A DNA stretch of 64,000 bases from the NCBI RefSeq assembly GCF_028369105.1, contig NZ_JAQNDO010000001.1, forward strand, positions 3,217,001 through 3,281,000, given 5' to 3'. Every line of letters starts with the position of its first letter. The first letter of the stretch is position 1. This document shows, in pieces, positions 19,844 to 50,325 of the stretch. A model generated the notes under the pieces. That model had not been told where the DNA came from, made no database searches, and was given only the letters and a program-made list of their open reading frames with translations. The stretch is from Polyangium mundeleinium (GTDB taxonomy: Bacteria > Myxococcota_A > Polyangia > Polyangiales > Polyangiaceae). The position numbers and the translations under genes were made by a program.

Positions 19844-19891
19844 GACCAAGCTCCGAGGCCGGTCATGCTCGCACGATGCCGCCCCCGTCCG

Positions 19892-22386: not shown

Positions 22387-22779
22387 GCTCTTGTCGTCCG
22401 CGCTGGTTTCTGCTCTCCTCGTCACATGCGTAAATTCTTGTTTGTCCTGGGTATCCTCGCACCGCTCGCGCTCTCCCTGCCCGCCCGCGCGGACATCCCC
22501 CCCGCGACCTCGTCCGGAAGCGGCACCGGCGGCGCTGGCGGCACCGGGGGTAACGGTGGCAACGGCGGCAACGGTGGCAACGGCGGCAACGGCGGCAACG
22601 GCGGCGCCACGAGCTCGACGGGCGGCTCCACGGAGCAACCGAAAGAGGACGAGGGGAGCTGCTCGGTCGTGGCCCCCGGCGCCATGACCTACGGCGCCAC
22701 GGGCGCTTGGATCCTCGGCCTCGGCGCGCTTCTCTACAGCCGCAAGGCCCGCCGCGCCGCGACTCGACGCCGCGCGTGA
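22387..22779 (+). repeat. Direct duplication, copy 2
   Basis: Second copy of the segment at 21087-21470, including the same sequence before the start codon. It carries six Asn-Gly-Gly codon triplets where copy 1 has eight, and a slightly longer 3' end (ARRAATRRRA against RSRRR). Confidence 0.85.
22426..22779 (+). CDS. Small exported Gly/Asn-repeat protein with MYXO-CTERM-like tail (copy 2)
   Basis: A 117-aa paralog of the protein at 21126-21470: same signal peptide, six Asn-Gly-Gly triplets preceded by GAGGTGG, the GSCSVVAPGA motif, the same hydrophobic helix and a longer Arg-rich end. Its stop codon overlaps the GTG start of the ABC permease gene (GTGA), so this copy is translationally coupled to a membrane-transport operon. 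Copy 1 stands alone. Whether the coupling is meaningful or a by-product of where the duplicate landed is not clear. Confidence 0.8.
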   Translation: MRKFLFVLGILAPLALSLPARADIPPATSSGSGTGGAGGTGGNGGNGGNGGNGGNGGNGGATSSTGGSTEQPKEDEGSCSVVAPGAMTYGATGAWILGLGALLYSRKARRAATRRRA

Positions 22780-23954: not shown

Positions 23955-24637
23955 CCGTGGCCGCGACGCCCTTGCTTTACGAACTCGCCTCGGTCACGCG
24001 GACCTTCCGCACGCCGGGGCTCGAGGTCCGCGCCCTCGAAGACGTCTCGTTCACGCTCGCCGAGGGCGAACTCGTGGCCATCGCCGGCCCGAGCGGCTCC
24101 GGCAAGAGCACGCTGCTCGCCGTCCTCGGCCTGCTCGACGCGGACGTTTCGGGCGAGGTCACGATGCGCGGCCAGAGCGTCCGGCGCATGACGAGCCGCG
24201 AGCGGGCCCGCGCGCGCCTCGAAGGCATTGGCCTCGTCTTCCAGACCTTTCACCTGCTGCCGGCGCTCGACGTGCGCCACAACGTCGCGCTCCCTCACTG
24301 GAAGCTCCACGGCCATCACGGCCGCGCCCTCGCGCGGGCCGAGGCGCTGCTCGCCGAGCTCGGCCTCGAAGCGCGCATTCGGCACGACGTCACGCGCCTC
24401 TCCGGCGGCGAAATGCAGCGCGTCGCCATCGCCCGCGCGCTCGTCAACGACCCGGCCGTCGTGCTCGCCGACGAGCCCACGGCGAACCTCGACGAGGCCA
24501 GCGCCGGGGCCGTCGTCTCGCTCCTTCGCCGCGCGAACGCCCGCGGCGCGGCCGTCGTCGTCTGCACGCACGACACGGAGCTGCTCGCCTCGTTCCCGCG
24601 CGTCCTTCGCATGCGGCATGGTAGAATGGCCCCGTGA
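23951..24637 (+). CDS. ABC transporter ATP-binding protein (LolD/MacB-type)
   Basis: A 228-aa nucleotide-binding subunit. Walker A GPSGSGKST (about residues 40-48), Q-loop VFQTFHLLPAL, signature LSGGEMQRVAIARAL and Walker B VVLADEPTANLDE, then the H-loop CTHD. The set and length match LolD-like ATPases that power MacB/LolCE permeases. ATGA overlap with the permease gene upstream and GTGA overlap with the membrane-protein gene downstream place it in the middle of a translationally coupled operon. Confidence 0.95.
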   Translation: MTVAATPLLYELASVTRTFRTPGLEVRALEDVSFTLAEGELVAIAGPSGSGKSTLLAVLGLLDADVSGEVTMRGQSVRRMTSRERARARLEGIGLVFQTFHLLPALDVRHNVALPHWKLHGHHGRALARAEALLAELGLEARIRHDVTRLSGGEMQRVAIARALVNDPAVVLADEPTANLDEASAGAVVSLLRRANARGAAVVVCTHDTELLASFPRVLRMRHGRMAP

Positions 24638-25785
24638 AGGCCGGATGGATCGGGGGGCGCCGCTTCGACCTCGCGTTTTTCTTCGGCAGCGCGCTTCTCG
24701 CCGCGCTCGTCGGGGCCTTCGCGCTCGTCGTCCCGCGGGCGGTCGTGCCGCTCTTCGTGGCCTTCCTCGTCCTCGTCGACGGCCCGCACCTCGCGGCGAC
24801 CTGGGCCCGCACCTACCTCGACCCAGGCTTTCGCGCGCGCCGCGGCCGCTTGCTCGTCGCGAGCCTCGCGTGGCTCCTGCCCGGCCTCGCCGCGTGGTCG
24901 ATCTCCCGCGCCACGGGCCTGCGCGCCCCGATGGATCTCTTCCTCCTCGCCGCGGCGCTCTGGAGTTTTCACCATGCCGTCCGGCAATCGTATGGCGTCC
25001 TCGCCATCTACCAGCACCACGCGCGCACCGCGCTGCCTGCGCGCAAGACCGATCGCCTCTTCTTGCACGGCGCCCTCTGGCTCGCCTTTGGCCTTTTTTC
25101 GTTTGGCCATCCGCAAAGTCGTGTCTTCCTCGGTTTGCCCGCGGAGCCGCCGCGCCTCCTCGCCACGCTTGGCCTCGCCCTCCTCGGCCTGCTCCTCGTC
25201 GCGACGGTCGTTTATGGGATCTACCGTCGAACCCGCTTCCGCGGCGAGGATGAACGTCCGCTCCTGTATCTCCTCGGCCCCACGCTCGGCCTCCAGCTCT
25301 TCGCGCTTTTCGTCGTCGGCTCGTTCGAGCCGCTCGTCCCGCGCCCCGCGGATCCGGAGCAGGCGTTCATGGCGTCCACGGTCGTCGGGGGAATCGTGCA
25401 CGGCGTGAATTACCTCGGCATCGCCTTTGCCGTCTCCCGGCGCCGTTTCGAGGGCAGCGACGCGCGCACGCTCGTGGCGTTTTTCGGCCGTCGCCCGCTC
25501 GGGGCGTATGCCGCGTTCGTCCTCGTCTCGCTCGGCTACCTCGCGCTGAATGCGGCGCGTGGTGTCCTTCCGAGCCTCGCGCCCGTCCCGCGCGGCGCCG
25601 CGCTCCCCGAGCTTTTCCTCGTGCTTTACTGGGGCATCTTCTTCCACCATTACTACATCGATCAAAAGATCTGGCACGTGCGCGAGGATCAAACGCTGCG
25701 GTTCGAGCTGGGGCTTGGGGGCGCAGCTCCGCTCGCCGGAGCGGAGCCCCCAAACGTTGACCGACCTCTGGAGGGAGCTTCGTGA
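24634..25785 (+). CDS. Polytopic membrane protein with paired-His motifs
   Basis: A 383-aa protein with about eight to nine hydrophobic helices. Its notable feature is clustered histidines at conserved-looking sites: His52 in DGPHLAATW, SFHHAVRQSYG (His113-114), YQHH (128-129) and FFHHYYIDQKIWH (His338-339, His348). Such clusters resemble metal-binding sites of membrane di-iron desaturases/hydroxylases or the Brp/Blh-type proteins, but spacing does not match a family I can name. In the operon it follows the ABC transporter genes and precedes SDR and radical SAM genes, so an oxidative step on a lipid-like product is plausible but unproven. GTG start, GTGA overlaps on both sides. Confidence 0.8.
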   Translation: MKAGWIGGRRFDLAFFFGSALLAALVGAFALVVPRAVVPLFVAFLVLVDGPHLAATWARTYLDPGFRARRGRLLVASLAWLLPGLAAWSISRATGLRAPMDLFLLAAALWSFHHAVRQSYGVLAIYQHHARTALPARKTDRLFLHGALWLAFGLFSFGHPQSRVFLGLPAEPPRLLATLGLALLGLLLVATVVYGIYRRTRFRGEDERPLLYLLGPTLGLQLFALFVVGSFEPLVPRPADPEQAFMASTVVGGIVHGVNYLGIAFAVSRRRFEGSDARTLVAFFGRRPLGAYAAFVLVSLGYLALNAARGVLPSLAPVPRGAALPELFLVLYWGIFFHHYYIDQKIWHVREDQTLRFELGLGGAAPLAGAEPPNVDRPLEGAS

Positions 25786-26495
25786 CCGACGCCCGTCGCG
25801 CGCTCGTGCTCGGCGGCAGCGGCTACGTGGGCCGCGAGGTCGTGCGCGCACTCGCGTCCACAGGCGCCCGGGTCGCATTCACGTACCTGCGCGGCGCCGC
25901 CCTCTCGGAATCCCTCGCCGCCGAGACGGGCGCGCGCGCTTTCCAGACGAACCTCGCCGAGCCCGCCGCGATCCGCGCGCTTTTCGACACGCTCCATGCG
26001 GAGGACACCGCGCCTGATCTGCTCGTGCATGCCGCTGTCGTCTCCGGCACGGGCGCGCTCGCGGACGTCACGGACGCGCTTTGGGACGAGATGCACGCGG
26101 TCAACGTCCGCTCCGTGTACGTCGCGATGCAATCGTTCGCCGCGCGGCTTGGGGGTCGTCCGGGGGACGTGGTCCTCACGGCGGCGCTCGACGGAATCGC
26201 AAAAATCCCGACCGCGGTGCATTTCGCCGCGACCCAGTCCGCGCGGCTCGGCATGACGCAGGCCCTCGCCAAGGAGCTTGGTCCGAAGGACGTCCGGGTG
26301 AACCTGGTCCTTCTCGGCGCGCTCGGCGGCGGCATCTCCGAGGGCCTCGATCCGGCGCGGCTCGCCGATTACAAGCGGTACAGCGCGCTCCAGCGCGTCG
26401 GCACGCCCGTGGAGGCCGCGCGCGCCATCACGCGCCTCGCGCTCCACAATCGATGGATGACGGGCTCCGTCCTGCCCATCACGGGGGGCCTGTGA
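25782..26495 (+). CDS. SDR-family protein, catalytically degenerate (FabG-like)
   Basis: A 237-aa Rossmann-fold protein of FabG length and layout. The N-terminal nucleotide-binding motif is altered (GGSGYVGREV, not TGxxxGIG), and the catalytic residues look lost: the usual Ser is absent from VVLTAALDG and the YxxxK motif is FAATQ in AVHFAATQSARLG. The conserved ALAKELG and the C-terminal MTGSVLPITGG are retained. It probably binds but does not reduce, acting as a structural partner or regulator, or it has changed chemistry. GTG start overlaps the previous stop; its own stop overlaps the next GTG. Neighbours are membrane and radical SAM genes. Confidence 0.88.
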   Translation: MTDARRALVLGGSGYVGREVVRALASTGARVAFTYLRGAALSESLAAETGARAFQTNLAEPAAIRALFDTLHAEDTAPDLLVHAAVVSGTGALADVTDALWDEMHAVNVRSVYVAMQSFAARLGGRPGDVVLTAALDGIAKIPTAVHFAATQSARLGMTQALAKELGPKDVRVNLVLLGALGGGISEGLDPARLADYKRYSALQRVGTPVEAARAITRLALHNRWMTGSVLPITGGL

Positions 26496-27052
26496 CGCCG
26501 CGCTGGGTCGGGCTCCTGCTCCTCGTCGTCCTCGTCCTGCACGCGGTCATCGCGAAAATGCCGTACGGGCTCCTGCCCGAAATGCTCTATGCCTGCCACG
26601 TGGCGACCGCCGTCCTCGTTGTCGGCGTGCTCCTCCGCAAGCCCGCGCTCGTCCTCTTTGGTTTTTCTTTCCATCTCGGCGCCGGCCTCTGGGGATACCT
26701 CTTCGACCTCTGCGAGACCCGCACGACGTCGTGGACCTCGGTCCTCGTGCACGTCGCGCCGCTCGTCGTCGGCGCGCTCGAGGTCCGCCGCTCGGGCCTG
26801 CCGCGCTGGGCTCCGTGGGCCTCGTTCGCCTTCCTCGCGTCGATGGTCGTGCTCGCGTATTACGCGACGCCGCCGACGCTCAACGTGAACCTCGCGCACC
26901 GGCCCTTTCCGCCCGTCGCGCGGATCACCCCGGCCCTGTGGGCCACCTGGGTGACGAACCTCATCTTCGGATTTTTTCTCATCCACACGACGGATTTCGT
27001 GGTCCGGAAATGGCTGAAGCGGCAATGGCAGACCGAACAGGCGAAGGCGTGA
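26492..27052 (+). CDS. Integral membrane protein, function unknown
   Basis: A 186-aa protein with about five to six hydrophobic helices: LLLLVVLVLHAVIA at the start, then TAVLVVGVLL, ALVLFGFSFHLGAGLWGYLF, SVLVHVAPLVVGALEV, ASFAFLASMVVLAYYA and LWATWVTNLIFGFFLI. It ends in a basic tail. The reading frame extends upstream into the SDR gene, but GTG 26492 makes the GTGA overlap that recurs throughout the operon. No family recognised. Its strict coupling to the radical SAM gene that follows suggests a shared pathway, perhaps a membrane partner for a lipid-modifying enzyme. Confidence 0.78.
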   Translation: MTPRWVGLLLLVVLVLHAVIAKMPYGLLPEMLYACHVATAVLVVGVLLRKPALVLFGFSFHLGAGLWGYLFDLCETRTTSWTSVLVHVAPLVVGALEVRRSGLPRWAPWASFAFLASMVVLAYYATPPTLNVNLAHRPFPPVARITPALWATWVTNLIFGFFLIHTTDFVVRKWLKRQWQTEQAKA

Positions 27053-28323
27053 TCCTCGGCGCCACGACGGGCCTCTGCGGGACGTGCAAGCGCACCGTTC
27101 CGGCCGAGACCGTGCGCGCCTCCGGCAAGATCGTCCTGCGCAAGCGCTGCGAGCTGCACGGGCCGGAAGAGGTGCTCGTATCGAGCTCCGCGGACTGGTA
27201 CGAGGACACCGTCCGCCACGCCTCCGTCCTCGATCGCCCCGCCGCGCCGCGCCCCGTCTCCGCCGGCTGCCCCTACGATTGCGGCCCCTGCGAGCAGCAC
27301 GAGCAACGCAATCACCTCCCGGTCGTCCCGATCACCTCGAAATGCGACCTCGATTGCCCGATCTGCTACACGCACAACAAAAACGAGGGCGCCTACCACA
27401 TGTCCGAGGGCGAGCTCGCGGCCATTCTGCGCCACCTCGACCACGTCGCCCCGGATCGGCGCATCATCAACCTCACGGGCGGCGAACCCACGCAGCACCC
27501 CGATTTCGAGCGCCTCGTCGAGATGTGCGTCTCGGCCGGCGTCCGGCGCGTCACCGTCTCCACGCACGGCCTGCGTTTCCTCCGCGACGAGGCGCTGCTC
27601 GAACGCCTCGCCCGTATCGACGCCCGTGTCATTCTCTCGTTCGACTCCTTCGAGGCCGAGGCCAACAAGAAGATGCTCGGCGGCCATCACCTGAACGCCA
27701 AGCTCAGGATCCTCGAACTGCTGGAGAAACACGGCGTGGCCACGACGCTCCTGCCCGTGCTCGCGCGCGGCGTGAACGATCACGAGGTCTCGGCGTTCAT
27801 CGACCTCGCGCTCGCGAAGGATTTCATCCGCTCCGTCGAGTTCCACCCCATGACGTTCACGGGCCAGAGCGGCGTGAGCTTCGAGCGCAGCGCGCGCTAC
27901 ACCGCGTTCGACGCGCTCTCCGACATCGAGCGCCAATCGGGCGGGCGGCTTGCGGTCCGCGATTTCGTCCCTTCGCCGCTCGCGCACCCGCTCTGTTACC
28001 AGATCGCTTATCTGCTCCGCCTGAAGGACGGCCGCTGGCTGCCGTTCACCCGCTTCATGGGCCGCGACGATCTCCGGAGCCTCCTCTCGCAGGAGCTTTA
28101 CATCGTGCCGGGCCCCGAGATGGAGCAGATTCTCGCGGACGTGCTCAATCGCCTGTGGGCGGGCGACATCGAATGCGAGGAGACCGACGCGGTCCTCTCC
28201 GCCTTGAAGGACCTCGTCGAGCGCATGTTCGCGCCCGGCACCGACGAGGCCATCCGCATGCGGATCGCCGAGATGCACACGAAGGCCATTTACGTGCACA
28301 CCCACATGGACGAGGAGACGTGA
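27049..28323 (+). CDS. Radical SAM enzyme, MJ0619/tetraether-synthase-like (copy 1)
   Basis: A 424-aa radical SAM protein. The cluster-binding CxxxCxxC is CDLDCPIC (Cys99, 103, 106). Before it stand a Zn-ribbon-like CGTC...CELHG region (residues 10-38) and CPYDCGPCEQH (74-84). After it come LTGGEPTQHPDF, SFDSFEAEANKKMLGG and LARGVNDHEV, then HPMTFTGQSG and PFTRFMG. This order matches, from memory, the MJ0619 family that includes archaeal tetraether synthase Tes, which joins alkyl chains by radical chemistry; its activity here is inferred. Starts at GTG 27049, 27025 (ATG) or 27010 (ATG) are possible; 27049 keeps the GTGA overlap. One Cys of the C-terminal PCSHPQC found in copy 2 is missing here (PLAHPLC). 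Confidence 0.9.
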   Translation: MILGATTGLCGTCKRTVPAETVRASGKIVLRKRCELHGPEEVLVSSSADWYEDTVRHASVLDRPAAPRPVSAGCPYDCGPCEQHEQRNHLPVVPITSKCDLDCPICYTHNKNEGAYHMSEGELAAILRHLDHVAPDRRIINLTGGEPTQHPDFERLVEMCVSAGVRRVTVSTHGLRFLRDEALLERLARIDARVILSFDSFEAEANKKMLGGHHLNAKLRILELLEKHGVATTLLPVLARGVNDHEVSAFIDLALAKDFIRSVEFHPMTFTGQSGVSFERSARYTAFDALSDIERQSGGRLAVRDFVPSPLAHPLCYQIAYLLRLKDGRWLPFTRFMGRDDLRSLLSQELYIVPGPEMEQILADVLNRLWAGDIECEETDAVLSALKDLVERMFAPGTDEAIRMRIAEMHTKAIYVHTHMDEET

Positions 28324-28345
28324 AGCCGCGGGCGCCTCGCCGCTC

Positions 28346-28909
28346 GTGCTCAAGGGCTCGGTCTCGGACGCGGCGCATGTGGCGGCGGCCGTGAAGGCGG
28401 TGGAGGCCGCGTACGGCGGCATCGACGTGCTCGTGAACAATGCGGCGCTGACGCAGGTCCTCCCGATCGCGCTCCTGGAAGAGGCGGAGTGGGACGCGGC
28501 GATGGACACGAACGTGAAGGGGCCGTATCTGTTCTCGCGCGCGGCGCTGAAATCGATGATCCGCGCGAAGAAGGGCCACATCCTGAACGTGGGCTCGTTC
28601 GGCGCGGACCGCGTCCTCGACGCGCCGGTGCATTACGCGGCCTCGAAGGCGGCGCTCGTCGGGTTTTCCCTCGCGCTCGCGAAGGAGATCGGCCGGTACG
28701 GAATCGCGGTGAATTGCCTGGTCCCGGGCCTGCTCGAAACGGGATTGTCCGCGCGGCTGCCGAAGCACCGCGTCGAGAGTTACGTGGCGCAGTCGGCGCT
28801 GGGGAGGCTCGGCACGGTGGAGGAGGTCGCGGATCTCGCGGCGTGGCTCGTCTCGGACGAGAACTCGTTCATGACGGGCGGACAAGTCGTCATCGACGGC
28901 GGACTTTGA
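28346..28909 (+). pseudogene. SDR/FabG-like gene lacking its 5' end
   Basis: A 187-codon frame from a GTG. It holds the SDR core NNA (VLVNNAALTQV), the Ser in NVGSFGAD, the YxxxK of VHYAASKAALVG, and the C-terminal SFMTGGQVVIDGG. The first ~55 residues of a normal SDR, with the TGxxxGIG cofactor-binding motif, are absent. The frame begins homology just after the radical SAM stop codon (28321-28323), whereas the paralogous locus at 49582 has a full SDR in an ATGA overlap with its radical SAM. A deletion therefore appears to have removed the start. A short GTG ORF at 28320 in another frame may be the leftover original start. A functional truncated product cannot be excluded. Confidence 0.7.
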
Positions 28910-28922
28910 ACCGCCGCGTTCC

Positions 28923-29342
28923 TCAAACCACCACGCCCCGCTTCTTCGCTTCCACCATGTTCACGAACGTCTGCACCGAGAAGAGCCCCAGGATCTGCAC
29001 GGCCCGAAGCCCCGGCGCGATGCGGTCTTTCGCTTCCGGCATCAGCTCGCGCAGCCGTTCGAGGCCCTTGTCGCTGACGACGCCGCCCGGCGCGAACTCC
29101 TCGTCGCTCATGTCTCCGCGCGCGGCCTTTTGCATCTCGCCCCGCGTGATCTGGATGCCGAACGTCCGCTCGATCTTGAACACGATATCAAGGTAATCGA
29201 GCGACTCGGCGCCGAGGTCGGCCATGAGGAGCGACTCGTTCTTCACCGCGGCCGGATCGAGGGCGAGCGCCTCGGCGACGATGAGGCGGACCTTCTCGGC
29301 GATCTCGGGATCGGAGGCGGGGATCGGGGCGGCTTCGGACAT
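28923..29342 (-). CDS. Acyl carrier protein, extended form
   Basis: A 139-aa ACP. The prosthetic-group site is DLGAESLDYLD with the attachment Ser at about residue 49 (ESL in place of the usual DSL), followed by the typical IVFKIERTFGIQI. Compared with an ordinary ACP (75-90 aa) there are about 50 extra residues, mostly a helical C-terminal region after RGEMQKAA, seen in specialised ACPs that serve dedicated lipid pathways. It converges with the truncated SDR gene 13 bp away and is therefore close to, but transcribed opposite to, the radical SAM operon. It is a candidate carrier for that pathway. Confidence 0.88.
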   Translation of the reverse strand: MSEAAPIPASDPEIAEKVRLIVAEALALDPAAVKNESLLMADLGAESLDYLDIVFKIERTFGIQITRGEMQKAARGDMSDEEFAPGGVVSDKGLERLRELMPEAKDRIAPGLRAVQILGLFSVQTFVNMVEAKKRGVVV

Positions 29343-41175: not shown

Positions 41176-41841
41176 TCAGTCCTCCACCCATTGCACGACG
41201 CGATCGATGGGCTTTCGCCCGGGCGGCGGCGCGTCGCCCAGGGGGTATCCGATCGCCACGGCGCCGACCATCCGGAACGGCTCCTTGATGCCGAGCAGCG
41301 CCTCGATTTCGGGCTTCGCGATCATCGGGCCCGCCATCCAGCAGGCGCCGAGGCCCTCGGCGTGCGCCTGGAGCAGCATCGCCATCACGGCCGCGCTCGT
41401 CGAGCAGAGCTCGGCCTGCATGCTGCGGGCCGTGTGGTACTGCGCCGGATCCCCGCCGCCCGAGGTGATGAGGTCGGCGATGAGATCGGGATAGTCGCGC
41501 CATTGCGGAACCGCGATCGCGGCGGCGCTCTCCAGCGGCTCGTGGAAAAAGTCGCCGTAATTGGCGAAATCCTCGGCGTGGTGCCCGCGGTGGATGATGG
41601 CCTTGATCTCCTCGGCCCGCGCCCGCACGGCCGCGGCGATTTGCTTGCGTATGTCCTCGGCCGTGACGACCGTGAAGCGCCAGGGCTGGCGGTTCGTGTT
41701 CGAGGGTGCAGTGATCGCGGCTTGCACGAGCCGGGCGAGCACCTCCTTCGGCACGGGTTCGTCCGCGAATTCGCGGCGCGACCGCCGCGTCTCCAGCCAC
41801 GCCAGCATCCCCGGGCCCTGTACCCCGCCCGGGCCGCTCAT
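41176..41841 (-). CDS. Nitroreductase-family flavoprotein
   Basis: A 221-aa FMN-dependent nitroreductase-fold protein: [39 protein letters not shown] (FMN binding) and near the end GLGACWMAG and IGYPLGD. Dimeric FMN enzymes of this fold reduce or oxidise diverse substrates (nitro groups, quinones, enones), and in biosynthetic clusters often act as oxidase or enoyl-reductase-type partners. ATG 41841 makes an ATGA overlap with the stop of the upstream FabG-type gene, so it is the final gene in the ketosynthase operon. An upstream ATG at 41871 is less likely. Confidence 0.92.
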
Positions 41842-42593
41842 TCCAGCTTGAATCCGCCGTCCACGTTCCATATCTGTCCCGTCACGTAGCTCGCCTCGTC
41901 CGAGACGAGGAAGGCGACCACCGCCGCGATTTCCTCGGGCCGGCCAACGCGCTTGAGCAGGATGCGTTTCGCGAGCTCGTCGGGCGCGAGGGCCCGGAGC
42001 TCGGCCGTCATGTCGGTCTCGACGAGGCCCGGCGCCACTGCATTCACGCGTACGCCGCGCGGCGCGAGCTCGACCGCGAGCGCGCGGGTGAACGATTCGA
42101 CGGCGCCCTTCGACGCAGCATAAAGCGACTGCCCGCGGCCCGGGCGCTGCGCCGCCACGCTGGAGACGTTGACGATCACGCCGCGGCGCCGCGAGATGAA
42201 GCGTCGTGCGGCCTCGCGGCAGCAGGCGACGACGCCCGCGGCGTTCGTGTCGAAGACGTGATCGTAATCGTCGTCCGTGCTCGCGCCGAGGAGGCCGTCA
42301 CGCGTGACGCCGGCATTGCAGACGAGCGCGTCGAGCGGTCCGAGCGTGGTTTCCGCTTGCTCGAAGAGCGACACGACCTCCGCGGGGCGCGAGACATCGG
42401 CGCGGAGAGCGACGGCCCGCGCCCCGAGCGCGTCCACGGCGGCCACGGTCTGCCGGGCCGCGTCCTCGTCGTGGCGATAATCGACGGCGACGGCATATCC
42501 GCGTCGCCCGAGCGCCTCCGCAATGGCGCGCCCGATTCCGCGCGAGGCGCCCGTGACGAGCGCGACGCGGGATCGCTCCTTGGTTTCGCTCAT
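41838..42593 (-). CDS. 3-ketoacyl-ACP-reductase-like SDR (FabG-type)
   Basis: A 251-aa classical SDR. It has the [15 protein letters not shown] cofactor motif near the N-terminus, NAG in [15 protein letters not shown] (Ser), YAASKGAVE (Tyr-x-x-x-Lys), PGLVETDM and a C-terminal [13 protein letters not shown]. All catalytic residues are intact. It would reduce a 3-ketoacyl-ACP to the 3-hydroxyacyl-ACP for the operon's ketosynthases. ATG 42593 overlaps the ketosynthase-like gene at 42590, and ATGA links it to the nitroreductase downstream. Confidence 0.93.
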
Positions 42594-43780
42594 GGAACCT
42601 CCACGCGCAGGGCGCCGGCGAGCCCCGGCATGCCGGCCGAGAGGGCCAGGGCCGAGCGGGCGCGTGTCTCCTCGGCACGCACGAGCGGACGGAGCGGGCC
42701 CGCCGAAGGACGATCGAGGCCCGCAATGGGCGGCAGCGCTCCCGCGCGGAGCGCCTCGGCGAGAAGGATCGCCTGCACGACCGCCGTCGCGCCGCCGAGA
42801 TGGCCCGTGGAAGCCGTCAAGGCGAGCAGCGCGGCCGATGGGCCGAGCACGTCGGCGAGCGCCGCGCGTTCGGCCGTATCACGCTCGGGCGAGGCGAGCG
42901 CGGCTCCATCGACGATCGTGTCGCCCGCGGCGAGATTGGCCGCGAGGGAGGCGAGCGCGCGGGGGCTGGGAAAGCCTTCGGCGCCGTCGGCCGTCGCTGC
43001 GGCCGAGATGAACGAGATCGCGCGATCGCCCGCGTCGTCGGGCCGCTCCAGCACGACGGCCGCGGCCGCCTCGCCGGGCACGATCCCCGCCGCGCCCTCG
43101 TCGTACGGGGCGATGACCGCCTCCGCGGTCGCGGCGCTCGTCGCGGCGCCGGACATGCCGAGCGAGAGGAGCGTCTCCGGCTCGACGAGCGAGTCGTACG
43201 CGAAGACGAGCGCCGCATCGACGCTGCCCACGGCGAGGGCGATGCTGGCCGCCCGGAGCGCCTGCGCCCCTGCATTCGAGCCCGCCGTGGTCGTGCCGTC
43301 GCCCTTGCCGCCGACGTCGATCGACAGGAGCGCGTGCGCGTTGTTCGACAGGTGAAAGAGCATCCAGAACGGGTGCAGCAAGGAAAACCCCTGCGCCCAT
43401 GCGCCCGTCGCGCGCGCGTCGCCCGTTTGTCGTTCGAGCACGGGCATCAGATCGTCCCAGTGCGCGCGCAGGCCGCCATAGCCGCAAAAAAGCCCGAGCC
43501 GCGCGCCTTTCGCCGGGGCGCCCGCGCGGGTGAGGGCCTCGGCCCCGACCTCCATGCCGAAGAGCCCCATCCGTTTGACGAATTTGCGGTGTTTCGTCGG
43601 CCGGGGCGCGCCGGGGATCGTGGCGGCGAGGCGGCAGGTGTAGGTGCTCGCGTCGAAATGGGCGTTCGGGGCCGCCGCGCGCTCGCCTGCGAGGAGCCTT
43701 TGGAGCACGGCCGCGGCGTCGTCGCCGAGCGGGGTGCGCAGGGAACACCCCGTCACGGCCATCCGGCCCGCGTGGGTCAT
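42590..43780 (-). CDS. Ketosynthase-like protein with Cys-to-Ser replacement (chain-length-factor-like)
   Basis: A 396-aa thiolase-fold protein. At the place where active ketosynthases have the Cys of ACASG it has Ser168 ([11 protein letters not shown]). The first catalytic His block (HGTGT) also appears lost (ASPERD region), while a GHLGGA block remains near residue 320. It cannot perform the normal condensation. In type II polyketide and aryl-polyene systems such inactive partners form heterodimers with the true KS and control chain length, so I infer a similar role with the protein at 43777. ATG 43780 overlaps that gene's stop by ATGA. The frame continues upstream but is not coding. Confidence 0.85.
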
Positions 43781-45054
43781 CGAGGTCTCCCGAGGACCAC
43801 GCTCACGTTTTGCCCGCCAAACCCGAAGGAGTTCGAGAGCACGTACTCGACGCGTTGCTTGAGGGGCTGGGGGCCGATCACGTGGATCGGGCACTCCGGA
43901 TCCGGCTCCTCGAAATGCGCCGTCCCGGGGAGCAGGTCGCGCGTGAAGGCGAGCAGGCACGCGGCGAGCTCGATCGCGCCGGCGGCGGCCATGAGGTGGC
44001 CGACGGCGCCCTTGATGCTCGACGTGGGCACGTCGCCGAAGAGCGCGTGGATCGCCTTCGCCTCGGCCATGTCGTTGAGCGGCGTCCCCGTACCGTGGGC
44101 ATTGACGTACCCGATGTCCGAAGGCACGAGGTTGGCACGACGAACGGCTCGTTCCATGGCCGCGAGCGCGCGCGAGCCGTCGGGGCGGGGCGCCGTCGCG
44201 CGGTAGGCGTCTTGCGTGGTCGCGGCGCCGGCGATGACCGCGAGGAGATCCGCGCCGCGCGCCCGCGCCCGTGACTCCTCCTCGACCACGAACATCGCCG
44301 CGCCTTCGCCCACGACGAGCCCGTCGCGCCGACGATCGAAGGGCCTGCACGCCGAGGGCTCGGCGCGCGGCGAGGGAGCGCCGAGGCGCGACATGCCGCC
44401 GATGCCGAGCGGGTTGACCATCGAGTCGGACGCGCCGCAAAGCACAACGTCGGCCGCGCCCCGCTCGATCTGCGAGGCCGCGTGCGCGACGGCCGTGCCG
44501 CCCGCCGCACATGCCGACACGTGCACGGCGACGCGGCCCGACAGGCCGAGCACGCCGCGGATCTTCTCGGCCGTGAGGTCGACACGCGAGCGGAACCGAA
44601 CGCCCTCCGGGCCCGCGAGATCCCCCGCGCCGACGCGGATCTCGTCGCCGTCGAGCGCCGTAGCGAGGTCCTCCAAAAACGCCTGTTCGAGCCCGAGCCC
44701 GATGGAGAGCGCGGCCTTGCGCTCGGCCGTCCCGCACCGCGCGTGGCGCCACGCCTCGGCCGCTGCGATGAGGCCAAAACACACCTTGCGATCACGCAGG
44801 AGGCCCGAGTGCTCCCACGCCGCGGCCTCGCCGACGTGAAGCAGGACGCCGCGGTGTTTTTCCAGGAGCGAGGCGCTCGTCTTTTCGATCGGCACTTCGC
44901 CCGCGACACGCGTGGGGAAGGTGCGCGCGTCGAAGTTTCGGATCGGACCGATCGCGCTCCGGCCCGCGGCGAGGCCGTTCGCGAGCGCGTCGTAGCCGAC
45001 GCCGAACGCGCTGACGGCGCCGACGCCCGTGATGACTGCGCGCCGCCCGGCCAT
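43777..45054 (-). CDS. Beta-ketoacyl synthase, catalytically complete
   Basis: A 425-aa condensing enzyme with all catalytic residues: Cys182 in SACAAGG, His in NAHGTGTPLND, and His in KGAVGHLMAAAG. The N-terminus MAGRRAVITGVGAVSAFG is typical. GTG 45057 precedes the chosen ATG 45054, but 45054 forms a TGATG-type overlap with the upstream gene. It probably forms a heterodimer with the Cys-less protein at 42590. It sits mid-operon between two ketosynthase-fold partners with altered active sites. Resembles the KS-alpha/FabF family from type II polyketide or aryl-polyene clusters. Confidence 0.92.
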   Translation of the reverse strand: MAGRRAVITGVGAVSAFGVGYDALANGLAAGRSAIGPIRNFDARTFPTRVAGEVPIEKTSASLLEKHRGVLLHVGEAAAWEHSGLLRDRKVCFGLIAAAEAWRHARCGTAERKAALSIGLGLEQAFLEDLATALDGDEIRVGAGDLAGPEGVRFRSRVDLTAEKIRGVLGLSGRVAVHVSACAAGGTAVAHAASQIERGAADVVLCGASDSMVNPLGIGGMSRLGAPSPRAEPSACRPFDRRRDGLVVGEGAAMFVVEEESRARARGADLLAVIAGAATTQDAYRATAPRPDGSRALAAMERAVRRANLVPSDIGYVNAHGTGTPLNDMAEAKAIHALFGDVPTSSIKGAVGHLMAAAGAIELAACLLAFTRDLLPGTAHFEEPDPECPIHVIGPQPLKQRVEYVLSNSFGFGGQNVSVVLGRPR

Positions 45055-46118
45055 CACGCGCCCCCTTTCGCGAGCACGACCACGCCGAGATCACCGTCCG
45101 GGCCCGCGGAGAGCACGAGCGCGCGGGGTTTGTTGAGGTGCGCGAGCAGGTCGAGCGTGAGCGCCCAGGCGAGCGCGGGCGTCGCGGCCAGGGATTCGCC
45201 AAGGGTGAGCGAGGTGTCCACCGAGATCTCCGCTTCGAGCACCTGGGGCAGATCCAGGAGCGCCTCGCGCGCAGGCGTGCCCCAGGGCGCGAGCACGACC
45301 ACGTCGCACGGCTGATCTTCGAGCGCGTCGAGCGCGGCAGGCACGGCCGCGTCGCGCAGGACGCCCGTGCGGGGCACGAGCGTGCCGCGAGGGCGTTCGA
45401 CGGGAAACACGCGCACCGCTTCCACGTAGCCGAGCGGCGCTTCGGCCGTGCTCGTGATCGCGAGCGCCGCGGCGCCTTCGGCCGGCGTGAGCCCTTGCCG
45501 CAAGAACCCTTCCCGTTCGAGCTCGGCCATCGTGATCGGGTGTAGGGCCGTGTCCGCGCCGCCGACGAGCGCGCGCTCGCACGCGCCCGACGTGATCGCG
45601 GCGCACGCCTCTTCGAGCGCCGTCACCGTGCCCGTGCCGCGCGAGAAAAACGCGGCGTTCGGGCCGGCGAGGCCTTCGAGGATCGCCCCGTGGCAGAGCG
45701 TGAAGTTGTTCATGATCTGGAACGCGAACAGGGGGTTGCACGCGTCGAGCCCCTCGCGGCCGCACCGCGCGAGCGAGAACTGGCCGTCCTCCATGCTCGC
45801 CACGATGAGCCGCGCGACCTCGTCCATCTCCGCGCCCGAGGCGCCGACGCCGAAGAACGCGCCGATCTCGGCGCGCGCCTCGTTCCACCGCGCCTCTTCG
45901 AGCGCGCCGCGCATCACGAGCGCCGAGAACCACGCGGCGCGCGACATCAGCTTCTTTTGCCGGATGTCCTCGGGCCGCGACGGCGCGGGCGCGGCGAGCT
46001 CGGACGGGCGCGGATGGCCGCCTTCGAGCACGCGCTGGGCGAGCCCGCGGCCCGCGAGGCCAGCTGCGGTCAGCGTCGAGACCGCGATCACGGGGAGGCC
46101 CTTTCCATCTAGGCGCAT
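45054..46118 (-). CDS. Ketosynthase-fold protein lacking the catalytic Cys
   Basis: A 354-aa protein with the thiolase-fold layout but shorter than its neighbours by about 60 residues. The region that should hold the nucleophile reads SRGTGTVTALEEACAAI; no ACxxG motif is found there, and neither HGTGT nor the GHL block could be matched. It resembles non-catalytic 'beta-ketoacyl synthase N-terminal-like' members that accompany active KS enzymes. Start ATG 46118 overlaps the preceding ketosynthase gene by 10 nt. The N-terminus MRLDGKGLPVIAVSTLTAAG retains the KS-like opening. A structural or initiation role is inferred. Confidence 0.8.
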   Translation of the reverse strand: MRLDGKGLPVIAVSTLTAAGLAGRGLAQRVLEGGHPRPSELAAPAPSRPEDIRQKKLMSRAAWFSALVMRGALEEARWNEARAEIGAFFGVGASGAEMDEVARLIVASMEDGQFSLARCGREGLDACNPLFAFQIMNNFTLCHGAILEGLAGPNAAFFSRGTGTVTALEEACAAITSGACERALVGGADTALHPITMAELEREGFLRQGLTPAEGAAALAITSTAEAPLGYVEAVRVFPVERPRGTLVPRTGVLRDAAVPAALDALEDQPCDVVVLAPWGTPAREALLDLPQVLEAEISVDTSLTLGESLAATPALAWALTLDLLAHLNKPRALVLSAGPDGDLGVVVLAKGGA

Positions 46119-47338
46119 CGGCTCACCACGAGGCTCGTGTTGGCGCCGCCGAACGCGAAGGCGTTGACGAGCGCTGCTTCCACGGGTTTTCGCTTTGCCG
46201 CGCCCACGACATGGGGCAAGGCGCACGCCGGATCCGGCTCGGTGAGGCCCGCCGTCGGCAAGCAGATTCCTTCCTCGACGGCTTCGAGCGCGCACAAGAA
46301 GCCGATCGCTCCTGCGCCCGCGACCCAGTGCCCGACCGCGCCTTTTACTGCGCCGACGTGCACGTTCGGGAGCGCGTCGCCGAGCGTCCTCCGGATCGCC
46401 GCGGCCTCCACGGCGTCGTTGAGCTGCGTGCTCGTACCGTGCGCCTGGACGTACCCGACCTCCACGCGCCCCGCGTCGTCGAGCGCGCCGCGCATCGCCC
46501 GCTCGGCCCCATCCCCCGCTTGATCGGGCGCCGTCAGATGAAACGCGTCGAGCGTCCGCGCGGCCCCCGCGACCTCGGCGCGCGCCTCGCCCCGCTCCGC
46601 CGCGAGCACCACGAACGCCGCGCCTTCGCCCACGACGAACCCGTCGCGCCGCACATCGAACGGGCACGACACGCCGCGCGCGCTGAGCGCGCCGAGCAGG
46701 CCGAATCCTACGAGCATGAACGGATCGACGTCCGCGCCCACGCCGCCCGCGAGCGCGACGTCGCAGAGCCCGAGCCGGATCGCCTGCGTGGCCGAGACGA
46801 TCGCCGCCGCGCCCGATGCGCAGGCGAGCGAGATCGTCTCGACGGGCCCTTCGGCGCCGATGCGCGCTGCGAGCGCCGAGGCGACCGCGGCAGGCGAGAC
46901 CGCGGCCGCGTGCACGGCCGTCGCGAGAGCCCGCGCGTCCTCGCCGAAGCGCGCGTGATCGAAGCGTGCGCCGCCACCCGCCGCGCGCGAGAGCGCGAAG
47001 ATCGTCCCGTACGTGGCCCGACCGCTCTCGGCGCCGACGAACACGCCGATGCGCGAGGGCGCGGCGCTCACCTGCGCCTCGGCCCACGCCTCGTCCGCGG
47101 CGCGCCGGGCGAGCGCGAGGCGGCGATCCTCGGCTTCGTCGAGGGGGAAGGGGACCGTCGCCGCGACCTGCGACGGATATCCTTCGACGTCGAAATGCCG
47201 GACGGGCCCGACGGCCGATCGGCCTTCGGCGAGCGCGTCCCTCGATGCGGGCCACGTCTCGCCGAGCGGCGTGATCGCGCCTCGACCGCGCACGAAGACA
47301 CGTCGCTTCAAGGCTCCTCCGCGGCTCCGGTCAGCCAT
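46109..47338 (-). CDS. Beta-ketoacyl synthase, catalytically complete
   Basis: A 409-aa condensing enzyme. Catalytic Cys173 in SLACASGAAA, His in QAHGTSTQLND, and His in KGAVGHWVAGAG are present. ATG 47338 has a reasonable Shine-Dalgarno-like GAGGTG 8 nt upstream. TTG 47311 (LKRRVFVRG) would give a TTGA overlap with the dehydratase stop and is the main alternative. It differs from the other active KS in the operon by sequence around the acyl pocket, so two different chain-extension steps, or two substrates, are possible. It is second in the operon, right after the dehydratase gene. Confidence 0.9.
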   Translation of the reverse strand: MADRSRGGALKRRVFVRGRGAITPLGETWPASRDALAEGRSAVGPVRHFDVEGYPSQVAATVPFPLDEAEDRRLALARRAADEAWAEAQVSAAPSRIGVFVGAESGRATYGTIFALSRAAGGGARFDHARFGEDARALATAVHAAAVSPAAVASALAARIGAEGPVETISLACASGAAAIVSATQAIRLGLCDVALAGGVGADVDPFMLVGFGLLGALSARGVSCPFDVRRDGFVVGEGAAFVVLAAERGEARAEVAGAARTLDAFHLTAPDQAGDGAERAMRGALDDAGRVEVGYVQAHGTSTQLNDAVEAAAIRRTLGDALPNVHVGAVKGAVGHWVAGAGAIGFLCALEAVEEGICLPTAGLTEPDPACALPHVVGAAKRKPVEAALVNAFAFGGANTSLVVSRCA

Positions 47339-47775
47339 ATGTCGAGCACCTCGCGCCGCCGCGCGAGCACCTTCGGGTTCGTCACGCGCGTGAACGCGAA
47401 GCCGAGCTCGGCCGTCGCCACGACCTCACCGTCGACCCGCGCTTTGCCTTTCACCTGCCCGCCTTCTTCGCGTGCGAGGATCGTCTCCGCTTCGAGCTCG
47501 AGTTTGTCCCCGGGCCGGACGATGCGCCGGAAGCGGGCGTGATCGATCATCGTGAGCAGCGCGTGCACGTCCTCGTGCCCCTCGGCGCGCCGGGTCGCTT
47601 CGAGCAGCACGCCGCCGAGCTGCGCGAGCGCCTCGATCACGAGCGCGCCGGGCATCATGGGGTGGCCCGGGAAATGGTCCGCGAAGGTGTCGTCGGAGAG
47701 CGACACACACTTGACACCCATCGCGAGGCGCGGCGGTTCGAGCCGCGTGATCCGATCGAGGAGCAGGTAACGCAC
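47308..47775 (-). CDS. 3-hydroxyacyl-ACP dehydratase (FabZ-type hot-dog)
   Basis: A 155-aa hot-dog-fold dehydratase. The signature FADHFPGHPMMPGALVIEALAQLGG supplies the catalytic His and Glu in the correct spacing, and DRITRLEP opens the domain. It removes water from 3-hydroxyacyl-ACP to give the trans-2-enoyl-ACP. GTG 47775 (VRYLLLDRI) matches the family start; the open frame upstream is not coding. First gene of the leftward operon and divergent from the radical SAM gene at 47840 with only 64 bp between starts, so the two operons could share a control region. Confidence 0.92.
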   Translation of the reverse strand: MRYLLLDRITRLEPPRLAMGVKCVSLSDDTFADHFPGHPMMPGALVIEALAQLGGVLLEATRRAEGHEDVHALLTMIDHARFRRIVRPGDKLELEAETILAREEGGQVKGKARVDGEVVATAELGFAFTRVTNPKVLARRREVLDIWLTGAAEEP

Positions 47776-47839
47776 GTGCGGCGAGAATAGCAGAGCTCTT
47801 CCGGCTCGAATTGACGGCCGAGGTCCCAAAGGAGGTAAG

Positions 47840-49585
47840 ATGCGTGCTCACGAGGGGAGCACCATGGATTGCGTTAGCTGTATCACTCCGACCCGGCAGG
47901 ACCGTCCGCATACGTTTTTCCACCACGAGCGGGCGGCGTGTCCGACGTGCCGCGAGACGCACGAGGGGCGCGTGGTGCTTCGCGGCGACAGCCCCGTGCG
48001 GCTCCTGCTTTGCCCCACGTGTGGCCCTTCGGAAGAAATTCTTCCCGGCACTGCAAATGCCTATGTCGACGGTTTCCTCGCCCGTGGCGAGGTGCCCGAG
48101 GGGTTCGAGGGCGAGATCGAGTTCAAGGAGACGACGTCCACCTGCCCGAGTTGCCTGACGCTGCTGCCTGCGAAGGTCGTGATCCGCGAAGGCCGCGTGT
48201 ATTTCAAGAAAAACTGCGCGGCGTGTGGCCCTTCGGAGGCGCTCGTCTCGGAGGACGCGAAATATTACGTGCGAGCGTATGCGTTTGCGCGCGCGGGCAC
48301 CGAGCCCTTGAAGTTCGCCACGAAGGTCGAGCACGGCTGTCCCACGGATTGTGGGACCTGCAATGATCACGAGCAGCACACCTGCCTGCCGATCATCGAG
48401 GTCACCGACCACTGCAACCTCGAGTGCCCGATCTGCATCGTCGACAACCAGTACTCGAACCACATCGATCTCGACACCTTTACGCGCATGATCGACACCC
48501 TCGTGATGAACGAGGGGCAGTGCGAGTCGGTGGCGCTCTCCGGCGGCGAACCCACGAGCCACCCGCAGATCCTCGACCTCGTGCGCATCGCGAGCCGCCC
48601 CGAGATCGGCCGCGTCGTGGTCATCACGAACGGCATCCGGCTCGGCAAGGACCGGGCTTTCGCGAAGGCTCTGAAGGAGAGCGGCGCTTACGTGGGCCTG
48701 CAGCTCGACGGTTTTACCGCCGATACCCACGAGAAGATCCGCGGGCGTGATCTCGTGAAGGAGAAGGAGGCGGCGCTCGCCGTGCTGCGCGAGCTCCAGA
48801 TCCCGACGCAGATCATCTTCGTGGCGACGCGCGGGGTGAACGACGATCAGATCGGAAAGGTCGTCGAGTTGTTCCTCTCGGGGGATCATTTCCTCTCGCT
48901 GAACTTCCAGCCCGCCGCGTACACGGGCCACGGCGGCGGTCTCTTTGACCACGATCCGATGGATCGACTCACGATCCCGGGCGTCGTGCGGCGCGTGGAC
49001 GAGCAGACGGGCGGCAAGCTCAAGGTGGAGGATTTTTTCCCGCTGCCCTGCTCGCACCCGCAATGCGTGTCGCTCACGTATCTGCTCCGCCTCGAAGACG
49101 GGACGTTCCTGCCGTTCTCGCGGTTCGTCGATTTCACGAAGCACGGCTCGCTCCTCCGTTCGAGCGCGACGCTCCCCGCGACGCCGGAGATGGAGCAGAC
49201 GCTCCAGGACGTGCTTTACGACGTCTACGCGCGGCAGGACGAGATCGAGCGCGGGCCGGAGATCCTCGCGGCGCTCAAGCGCACGCTGAAGGTGATGTTC
49301 CCGGATCGGCCGATGACGCAAAAGGAGAGCCTGCTCATCGGCGAGCAGCAGGCGAAATCGATCTTCCTGCACCATTACATGGATCGGCACGATTTCGATC
49401 TCGAGCGCCTGCGCAAATGCTGCCACCATTACCCGCAGACAGACGGGCGCATCATGCCGGCGTGTGGCTTCAACATGTTCCACCGCGGCGCAGCGAAGGG
49501 GCCGGGGACGCAGACGCCGTCCTGGGGCAAGAAGCCCTGGGTCAAGGAAAACGGGACGACGCGCCTCTCGATCCTGTCCTCATGA
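47840..49585 (+). CDS. Radical SAM enzyme, MJ0619/tetraether-synthase-like (copy 2)
   Basis: A 581-aa radical SAM protein. CxxxCxxC is CNLECPIC (Cys192, 196, 199). Upstream of it are two tandem CxxC Zn-ribbon/rubredoxin-like modules (CVSC, CPTC, CPTCG; then CPSC, CAACG) and CPTDCGTCNDH. Downstream are LSGGEPTSHPQ, LQLDGFTADTHEKIRGRD, TRGVNDDQIGKV, NFQPAAYTG, a second Cys pair in PCSHPQC, RFVDFTKHGS and a C-terminal RKCCHHYPQTDGRIMPACGFN. This is the MJ0619/Tes layout as I recall it, with an extra N-terminal module. Family members couple or modify alkyl chains. ATG 47840 follows AAAGGAGGT by 4 nt; ATG 47864 is an alternative. It overlaps the SDR gene downstream by ATGA. Confidence 0.92.
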   Translation: MRAHEGSTMDCVSCITPTRQDRPHTFFHHERAACPTCRETHEGRVVLRGDSPVRLLLCPTCGPSEEILPGTANAYVDGFLARGEVPEGFEGEIEFKETTSTCPSCLTLLPAKVVIREGRVYFKKNCAACGPSEALVSEDAKYYVRAYAFARAGTEPLKFATKVEHGCPTDCGTCNDHEQHTCLPIIEVTDHCNLECPICIVDNQYSNHIDLDTFTRMIDTLVMNEGQCESVALSGGEPTSHPQILDLVRIASRPEIGRVVVITNGIRLGKDRAFAKALKESGAYVGLQLDGFTADTHEKIRGRDLVKEKEAALAVLRELQIPTQIIFVATRGVNDDQIGKVVELFLSGDHFLSLNFQPAAYTGHGGGLFDHDPMDRLTIPGVVRRVDEQTGGKLKVEDFFPLPCSHPQCVSLTYLLRLEDGTFLPFSRFVDFTKHGSLLRSSATLPATPEMEQTLQDVLYDVYARQDEIERGPEILAALKRTLKVMFPDRPMTQKESLLIGEQQAKSIFLHHYMDRHDFDLERLRKCCHHYPQTDGRIMPACGFNMFHRGAAKGPGTQTPSWGKKPWVKENGTTRLSILSS

Positions 49586-50325
49586 CCAAACTTTGCGAAG
49601 GGCACATCGCCTTGGTGACGGGCGGTTCCAAGGGCCTCGGGCGGGCGATCGCCGTGACGCTCGCCCGCGAAGGGGCGCACGTCGGGTTCAACTGGACGAA
49701 ATCGGAGGTCGAGGCGAAGGAGACGCTCGCCGAGATCGAGGCGCACGGGGTGCGGGGGTTTTCCTTTCGAACGAGCGTGCTCGACAAACAGGGCCTCGCC
49801 GCGGCCGTGAAGGAGATGGAGGGCGCGGTGGGGACCGTGGACATCCTCGTGAACAACGCGGGCGTCTCCGACGTGGTTCCGCTCGCCTTGATGGACGAGG
49901 ACGACTGGGACCGCGTGATGGATACGAACGTGAAAGGCACGTTCCTCGCCACGCAGGCCGTCCTGCGGGGCATGGTCAAGCTCCGGCGCGGGCGCATTCT
50001 CAACATCGGCTCACTCGCCGGGGTGAAGATGATGCAGGCACCGGTGCATTACTGCACGGCAAAGGCGGCCATCAAGGGGTTTACGGAGTCGCTCGCCAAG
50101 GAGATCGGGCGCTACGGGATCACGGTGAACAACCTCGCGCCCGGGGTGCTGGAAGGCGGGGTCAGCGTGAATTTGCCCAAAGGTCGGCTCGACGAGTACC
50201 TCCGGCATACCGCGCTCGGGCGGCTCGGCACGTTTCAGGAGGTCGCCGAAATGGCGGCGTTTCTGGTGTCGGATCGATCGTCGTACGTGAATGGAGCGAC
50301 CATTCTGGTGGACGGCGCGGTGTAA
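49582..50325 (+). CDS. Classical SDR / 3-ketoacyl-ACP-reductase-like, intact
   Basis: A 247-aa SDR. It has TGGSKGLGRAIAVTL (cofactor), NNAGVSDV, NIGSLAGVK (Ser), VHYCTAKAAIKGF (Tyr-x-x-x-Lys), and SYVNGATILVDGA. ATG 49582 makes an ATGA overlap with the radical SAM gene. It is about 40 percent or more similar by eye over the core to the truncated SDR at 28346, which also follows a radical SAM gene. This is the full version of the conserved pair. It may reduce a ketone left by, or upstream of, the radical step. Confidence 0.93.
   Translation: MTKLCEGHIALVTGGSKGLGRAIAVTLAREGAHVGFNWTKSEVEAKETLAEIEAHGVRGFSFRTSVLDKQGLAAAVKEMEGAVGTVDILVNNAGVSDVVPLALMDEDDWDRVMDTNVKGTFLATQAVLRGMVKLRRGRILNIGSLAGVKMMQAPVHYCTAKAAIKGFTESLAKEIGRYGITVNNLAPGVLEGGVSVNLPKGRLDEYLRHTALGRLGTFQEVAEMAAFLVSDRSSYVNGATILVDGAV

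Follow-up and report, generated by a model that had tools for sequence, protein, structure and literature searches.

The stretch considered here is 64,000 nucleotides of the Polyangium mundeleinium genome (the window hereafter; G000:C1:3217001-3281000 of a 13.25 Mb genome, GC content 69.5%), which carries at 41176-50325 a type II ketosynthase (KS) operon beside a divergent pair of genes headed by a radical S-adenosylmethionine (SAM) enzyme, rSAM-alpha. The enzyme belongs to the superfamily of the archaeal tetraether synthase Tes (MJ0619), and it is the linkage of such an enzyme to KS genes, which recurs in relatives from distant phyla, that forms the main finding. All nine genes were found at or near the coordinates given by the first-pass annotation of this DNA, and Pfam agrees with the fold assigned to each of them:

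41176..41871, minus strand: NTR, nitroreductase-family flavoprotein (PF00881, 6.2e-35)
41838..42593, minus strand: FabG-type ketoreductase, a short-chain dehydrogenase/reductase (SDR; PF13561, 1.9e-67)
42590..43780, minus strand: KS4L, ketosynthase-like protein of chain-length-factor (CLF) type without catalytic Cys (PF00109, 1.1e-15)
43777..45057, minus strand: KS3, intact FabF-type ketosynthase (PF00109/PF02801; catalytic motifs)
45054..46118, minus strand: KS2L, second CLF-type protein without catalytic Cys (PF00109, 1.2e-10)
46109..47338, minus strand: KS1, intact FabF-type ketosynthase (PF00109/PF02801; catalytic motifs)
47308..47829, minus strand: FabZ-type 3-hydroxyacyl-acyl carrier protein dehydratase (PF07977, 2.8e-21)
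47840..49585, plus strand: rSAM-alpha, Tes-superfamily radical SAM enzyme with an extra N-terminal ribbon-like repeat (PF04055, 1.2e-22; PF23545, 6.5e-17)
49582..50325, plus strand: SDR-alpha (PF00106, 5.5e-54)

The leftward operon with overlapping junctions that had been proposed is borne out by the gene coordinates, which give overlaps of 4 to 34 bp at all seven same-strand junctions, including 4 bp between rSAM-alpha and SDR-alpha. The same annotation had set the divergent pair 64 bp away from the operon; this distance to 47840 holds if FabZ starts at the in-frame GTG at 47775, the other start being a TTG at 47829. The Cys, His and Lys-His motifs are retained in both KS1 and KS3. The corresponding Cys sites read TTTAGSNAG in KS4L and FSRGTGTVTA in KS2L, neither with a Cys; in KS2L the last His is moreover replaced by Glu (by eye). 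The arrangement is that of type II KS/CLF systems, with an intact KS adjoining a Cys-less KS-like partner in two such neighbour pairs. Because two KSs retain their motifs next to two KS-like proteins without Cys, two KS/CLF pairs, KS1-KS2L and KS3-KS4L, are likely. As for the accessory enzymes, FabZ falls among ordinary FabZ relatives (NF000582, 120.7 bits, above the cut-off of 113), and the FabG-type SDR reaches 256 bits with TIGR01830, under the cut-off of 297.75. The solved relatives of NTR are a mixture of nitroreductases, BluB and iodotyrosine deiodinase, and these nearest structures do not separate reduction from desaturation. An acyl carrier protein (ACP) was not found within the operon itself, nor was an enoyl reductase found among the genes of the system.

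The comparison of rSAM-alpha with Tes of Methanocaldococcus jannaschii (PDB 7tol) gave two aligned stretches covering query residues 83-551 (E 2.1e-62). With the Tes cluster ligands taken from PMC9433317 (consulted in part, as were all publications cited here) and the positions in rSAM-alpha counted by hand on the alignment, the N-terminal CX3CX2CX2H, the radical SAM motif CX3CX2C and the C-terminal CC..C region are kept, as is the residue aligned with Tes Tyr459. A second, upstream ribbon-like repeat is visible by eye at the N-terminus, where Pfam gives just one (residues 96-137). Since the query was matched from residue 9 or before in all 26 loci L090-L115, the N-terminal extension is common to them; the reading frames recovered from the 42-45% relatives of rSAM-alpha leave little room for it. 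By score, rSAM-alpha reaches 266.5 bits against the Tes model NF045702 and 274.6 bits against the TrsS model NF045646, below the cut-offs of 450 and 490, respectively.

The phylogeny agrees with these scores. In a quick tree of 132 rows, rSAM-alpha lies within a group of 108 rows (support by SH-aLRT, an approximate likelihood-ratio test, 99), apart from the Tes (99) and TrsS (99) groups. In a careful tree of 39 rows hand-picked from the quick one, 26 alpha and beta rows are split from 13 Tes and TrsS rows by a branch of length 1.2 with 100/100 support, TrsS is a separate clade (100/99), and a tree in which Tes and alpha are forced into one clade is rejected (delta lnL 84; p-AU, from the approximately unbiased test, 1.8e-76). 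Orthology of rSAM-alpha to Tes is ruled out by score and tree, and membership of TrsS by score and separate clade. The earlier description as MJ0619/Tes-like accordingly stands in its broad sense, with a shared superfamily, a full-length alignment and the motifs, and is given up in its narrow sense, as the outcome named beforehand as contradicting it, a phylogeny outside the Tes group, is what the trees returned. From the sequences, this third clade is an old pair of paralogues, alpha, with rSAM-alpha, and beta, in which the tyrosine is lost. Where the pattern found it, the C-terminal motif is CC-x-x-Tyr in the alpha group (exception L168) and CCVG, CCVA, CCVS or CCDSN in the beta group, the pattern giving no match in many beta rows. 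Beta is a firm single group (100/99); alpha as a single group is weakly supported (73/52 in the 39-row tree, SH-aLRT 88 in the 132-row tree). Alpha and beta co-occur in distant phyla with matching subgroups, the rows of Bacillota, Elusimicrobiota, Phycisphaerales and Pelobacter clustering together within alpha and likewise within beta, which fits a long joint inheritance. The host also possesses a fourth gene of the superfamily, at G000:C1:11558118-11559629 (L046, L060), which groups with archaeal Tes and reaches 349 bits with the Tes model, also under the cut-off of 450; no KS-cluster gene was matched within 20 kb around it. For a tetraether-synthase-like function it is the stronger candidate in the host.

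How far the linkage with KS genes extends was read from relatives collected by a profile search of genome contigs with the radical SAM alignment alone, the best 80 of at least 218 matches giving 79 loci. Among all 79, many of them on short contigs, a KS with Cys motif was found in 43, a CLF-type protein in 44, FabZ in 51, NTR in 33, ACP in 41, beta in 44, mem2 (a membrane protein described below) in 22 and an aminotransferase in 27. Where about 10 kb of flank was available to either side (32 loci), KS was found in 26, CLF-type in 26, FabZ in 25, NTR in 22, ACP in 23, beta in 15, mem2 in 9 and an aminotransferase in 13. Setting aside four Polyangium and five Massilia records, KS remains in 17 of 23 full-flank loci. 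Ten Tes/TrsS control loci, three of them shortened by contig ends, showed one KS, one FabZ and neither NTR nor ACP, and the five TrsS loci scoring over the cut-off held no KS. The association of a Tes/MJ0619-superfamily enzyme with a type II KS cluster, as first proposed for this single locus, is supported by 26 of 32 full-flank relatives versus 1 of 10 controls. The reverse test points the same way, as KS2L (45054) was matched at 1e-12 in eight of 98 genomes of the host's family and all eight fall among the 24 with the radical SAM enzyme at 1e-60. In L128 and L139 the KS-fold proteins failed the Cys pattern and were counted as CLF-type; L112, L116, L123 and L165 showed neither type, the KS genes of L112 lying just beyond the locus edge. 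Among the 30 loci L090-L119, 22 have an SDR-alpha homologue called immediately after rSAM-alpha (hand count), and loci combining the radical SAM enzyme with KS-cluster genes are assigned by title or lineage to Myxococcota, Pseudomonadota, Planctomycetota, Bacillota, Elusimicrobiota, Bdellovibrionales and others. In reading these loci, genes of high-GC members were called by a simple script with rough start sites, a match by name carries no meaning for SDRs, kinases and ABC proteins under about 40% identity, and the count of a SPASM radical SAM profile (67/79), which also caught other radical SAM proteins, is not used.

The system of the host is not confined to the operon. About 12-15 kb from it, in the same window, lie rSAM-beta, an ACP and a membrane protein with the fold of TMEM164, so that the original span of 41176-50325, while holding all genes named for it, was too narrow; further genes of the system stand at 24634-29342:

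24634..25785, plus strand: mem1, His-rich multi-pass membrane protein (no Pfam/NCBIfam family)
25782..26495, plus strand: SDRb0, divergent SDR (PF13561, 1.6e-34)
26492..27052, plus strand: mem2, TMEM164-fold membrane protein, putative acyltransferase (AlphaFold2 model, fold match)
27010..28323, plus strand: rSAM-beta paralogue, C-terminus lost here (35% identity to rSAM-alpha)
28346..28909, plus strand: SDR-beta, N-terminus lost here (comparison with relatives)
28923..29342, minus strand: acyl carrier protein (PF00550, 1.4e-06; LGAESLDYL motif)

A third place, at G000:C1:10.29 Mb, holds a third paralogue with an SDR and an aminotransferase, and three paralogues were matched at 1e-30 in six of six genomes of the genus searched. 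Elsewhere the parts lie together. Near-contiguous clusters were found in Massilia aquatica (L171-L172) and in a gammaproteobacterial metagenome-assembled genome (L169-L170), where the KS operon is accompanied by ACP, mem1, two aminotransferases of class III, a radical SAM protein of SPASM type, SDRs, mem2 and rSAM-beta. In Massilia, as in other loci, ACP homologues lie within the cluster, and mem1 adjoins ACP in five Massilia loci; the predicted model of mem1 is too uncertain to assign a fold (pLDDT 65.4) and gave no useful structural match. Fatty-acid-hydroxylase-like genes occur in some clusters, the gammaproteobacterial genome carrying a gene 29% identical to one assigned by Pfam to the fatty-acid hydroxylases. 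Judged by eye, this gammaproteobacterial cluster is interrupted by a type I restriction-modification island (L169:6656-14092), and a phosphopantetheinyl-transferase-like gene stands next to the cluster.

In the host, 318 bp of genomes G005, G002 and G004 are replaced by 2 bp between window positions 28319 and 28322, leaving rSAM-beta without its C-terminal Cys region and SDR-beta without its start; the beta match ends at query residue 550 in five other genomes of the genus versus 524 here. The deletion could be genuine or an artefact of assembly; relatives have intact copies. A selenoprotein reading of the in-frame TGA in rSAM-beta was ruled out, the TGA being the stop of the deletion-shortened frame.

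The membrane protein mem2 has a fold that points to lipids. Its AlphaFold2 model (pLDDT 94.3) matches the structure of TMEM164 (9lw1) with Z 13.8 over 174 aligned residues at a root-mean-square deviation of 3.1, the next match having Z 7.2, although chance can bring helical models to a Z of about 13; a Foldseek comparison by itself yielded E 0.33 and a probability of 0.97. The likeness to the acyltransferase TMEM164 is one of fold, whereas by sequence no PDB entry was matched by mem2 up to E 10, and Pfam had no match for the mem2 of the window and matched TMEM164 weakly in 2 of 15 homologues (best E 0.013). Across an alignment of 15 rows, C35 is nearly invariant, and H87, N131 and N133 are invariant. 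TMEM164 takes an acyl chain off a phospholipid and places it on a lyso-ether lipid (PMC10474074), and on the basis of the model mem2 is probably a membrane acyltransferase, in which C35 is a candidate catalytic residue.

Taken together, the alpha-beta system is on balance best read as a dedicated type II fatty-acid or polyketide line whose acyl chain would undergo radical chemistry of the Tes kind and then reach a membrane acyltransferase; we hold this with slightly more belief than doubt. From the genes we infer the chemical steps, the substrate and the product as follows. The pairs KS1-KS2L and KS3-KS4L, with FabG and FabZ, would assemble a chain on the ACP encoded at 28923-29342, and the flavin nitroreductase may reduce or desaturate it. 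Subsequently, rSAM-alpha would cleave SAM and abstract hydrogen from an unactivated carbon of the hydrophobic chain. By analogy with Tes, the auxiliary [4Fe-4S] cluster at its C-terminus would presumably hold the radical until a bond, most likely C-C, is newly formed between or within chains. A partner or second radical step could be performed by rSAM-beta, which is without the Tes tyrosine, whereupon the SDRs, plus aminotransferases and the hydroxylase-like gene in other loci, would finish the head end and the TMEM164-fold protein would transfer the chain to a membrane acceptor. In the likely order, the chain would first be assembled on ACP, next be modified by the radical enzymes alpha and beta acting together, then have its head group finished and finally be transferred to the membrane. 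The suggestion of the first-pass annotation, a chain built by the operon and then modified by the radical enzyme, gains support as an interpretation.

Several observations weigh against this pathway. The reaction type, which is carried over from Tes, is its weakest step. The enzyme rSAM-alpha lies outside the Tes clade, so that Tes chemistry may not carry over; compared with Tes, the ribbon His is replaced by Cys and Met439 by His. Two loci, L116 and L123, possess the radical SAM pair but showed no KS to a distance of about 10 kb. The relatives are for the most part metagenome bins, in which single placements may be wrong, and with rSAM-beta and SDR-beta truncated the pathway in this genome may be impaired. 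Finally, a cysteine desulfurase-rhodanese fusion family beside the radical SAM pair in L148, L153 and L156 (Pfam run on L148) also fits sulfur insertion; the family hints at sulfur supply or at cluster repair.

Among the alternatives, a highly reducing type II polyketide synthase (PKS) without enoyl reductase, making a polyene-like pigment or antibiotic tailored as a secondary metabolite by the radical enzymes, fares best, and we regard it as unlikely if well worth keeping in mind. Two KS/CLF-type pairs with ketoreductase, dehydratase and ACP, and no enoyl reductase seen, fit such a product, as do a gene beside one cluster, read by eye as a phosphopantetheinyl transferase, and the patchy distribution, in which A-type genes occur in Polyangium and Massilia. 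The KSs themselves are closer to FabF (1j3n; 229 bits for KS3, its best PDB match, and 190 bits for KS1) than to 6qsp (134 and 116 bits), which we take to be ApeO, and to 6kxd, which we take to be an ishigamide KS. On that assumed identity of 6qsp, the scores speak against an aryl-polyene cluster; moreover, of the proteins scanned with Pfam none was assigned to an ammonia-lyase or thioesterase family, and the TMEM164-like fold of mem2 points to lipid.

Slightly more doubtful is a factory for membrane-spanning lipids, in which rSAM-alpha would join two long chains tail to tail, as Tes does, to a diabolic-acid or glycerol dialkyl glycerol tetraether (GDGT)-like bolalipid. The Tes-type cluster motifs and tyrosine of rSAM-alpha, the fold of mem2 and the hydroxylase-like and aminotransferase genes of related clusters would suit it. 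Yet rSAM-alpha stands outside the Tes clade, the genome has a separate Tes-clade gene, and Tes works on finished lipids (PMC9433317), for which a linked KS line would not be needed. Sulfur insertion into an acyl chain by the radical SAM pair via an auxiliary cluster, like LipA or BioB, is quite improbable: the desulfurase-rhodanese family in three loci, a rhodanese-domain family in eight (Pfam on one member of each) and the C-S intermediate of the Tes reaction (PMC9433317) speak for it, but L090-L119 contain no member of either family, the window gave no match to them, and both may serve cluster repair.

Returning to the acyl-chain line with a membrane acyltransferase, its boldest extension would be that many bacterial phyla share a so far unrecognised lipid pathway in which the KS line feeds a paired alpha-beta enzyme making C-C bonds, yielding a cyclised or membrane-spanning amino lipid as a third C-C-coupling route beside Tes and the bacterial membrane-spanning lipid synthase; this we consider speculative and rather unlikely. 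Irrespective of the product, a large bacterial clade split from Tes is recognized, with an old paralogue pair, its own ketosynthases, ACP and an acyltransferase-fold membrane protein, which gives a testable pathway in cultured Massilia and Polyangium strains. Tes homologues occur in bacteria not known to make such chains (PMC9433317), and surveys count bacterial Tes homologues, of unproven function, which are proposed to make branched GDGTs (PMC8941075, PMC11868695). Caution is called for in taking bacterial homologues of the alpha-beta clade as markers of membrane-spanning lipids.

Around these genes the window offers some further features. LolC/LolD-like ABC transporter genes (22707..24637, plus strand) overlap mem1 and are a possible exporter of uncertain membership; clear LolC matches were obtained in L043 (same genus) and L149 only, with a weak partial match in L114. 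Judged by eye, a response regulator-PAS gene adjoining the operon is similar to the N-terminal portion of an opposite-strand hybrid histidine kinase (37457-39598, 40321-41169), the pair being a likely inverted partial duplication. In addition, a protein of 904 amino acids (17135-19849) matches the Dictyostelium CTDC repeat family (PF00526), here in a bacterium.

In literature titles and abstracts, the gene set was not described among the matches listed, most subscription papers and preprints lying outside the coverage. Of the known systems, Tes (GDGT-MAS) shares with rSAM-alpha the superfamily, domain order, N-terminal, radical SAM and C-terminal motifs and the Tyr459 equivalent, whereas rSAM-alpha differs by its separate clade, the extra ribbon-like repeat, the two substitutions (ribbon His to Cys, Met439 to His) and the linkage to KS genes and a beta paralogue. 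TrsS is similar in its model score, and rSAM-alpha is set apart from it by staying under 490 bits, by its clade and by the KS linkage. Gms, an archaeal lipid-coupling enzyme, is a SPASM-type radical SAM protein (PMC11186832). The present cluster has FabF-nearer KSs, a linked radical SAM pair and a nitroreductase, which distinguish it from aryl polyene clusters. These and other highly reducing type II PKS clusters comprise KS/CLF, ketoreductase, dehydratase and ACP without enoyl reductase, and in this the cluster resembles them. As a proxy for anammox bacteria, the hydrazine-synthase domain PF18582 was matched in 16 of 392 planctomycete genomes, six of which matched the radical SAM profile at 1e-20 and ten did not; because the three best gave so few KS matches at 1e-15 (3, 3 and 1, versus seven FabF paralogues in Kuenenia; PMC2649909), the proxy is not reliable. 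For ladderanes, type II fatty-acid synthesis (FASII) clusters have been proposed in Kuenenia, with related ones in Desulfotalea; unlike the cluster described here, these loci are listed with phytoene-dehydrogenase-like and methyltransferase genes as well (PMC2649909). Compared by description, they likewise combine several KS-like proteins, some of them Cys-less, with FabZ, FabG, ACP and radical SAM proteins, and on gene description they are the closest published idea to the alpha-beta system.

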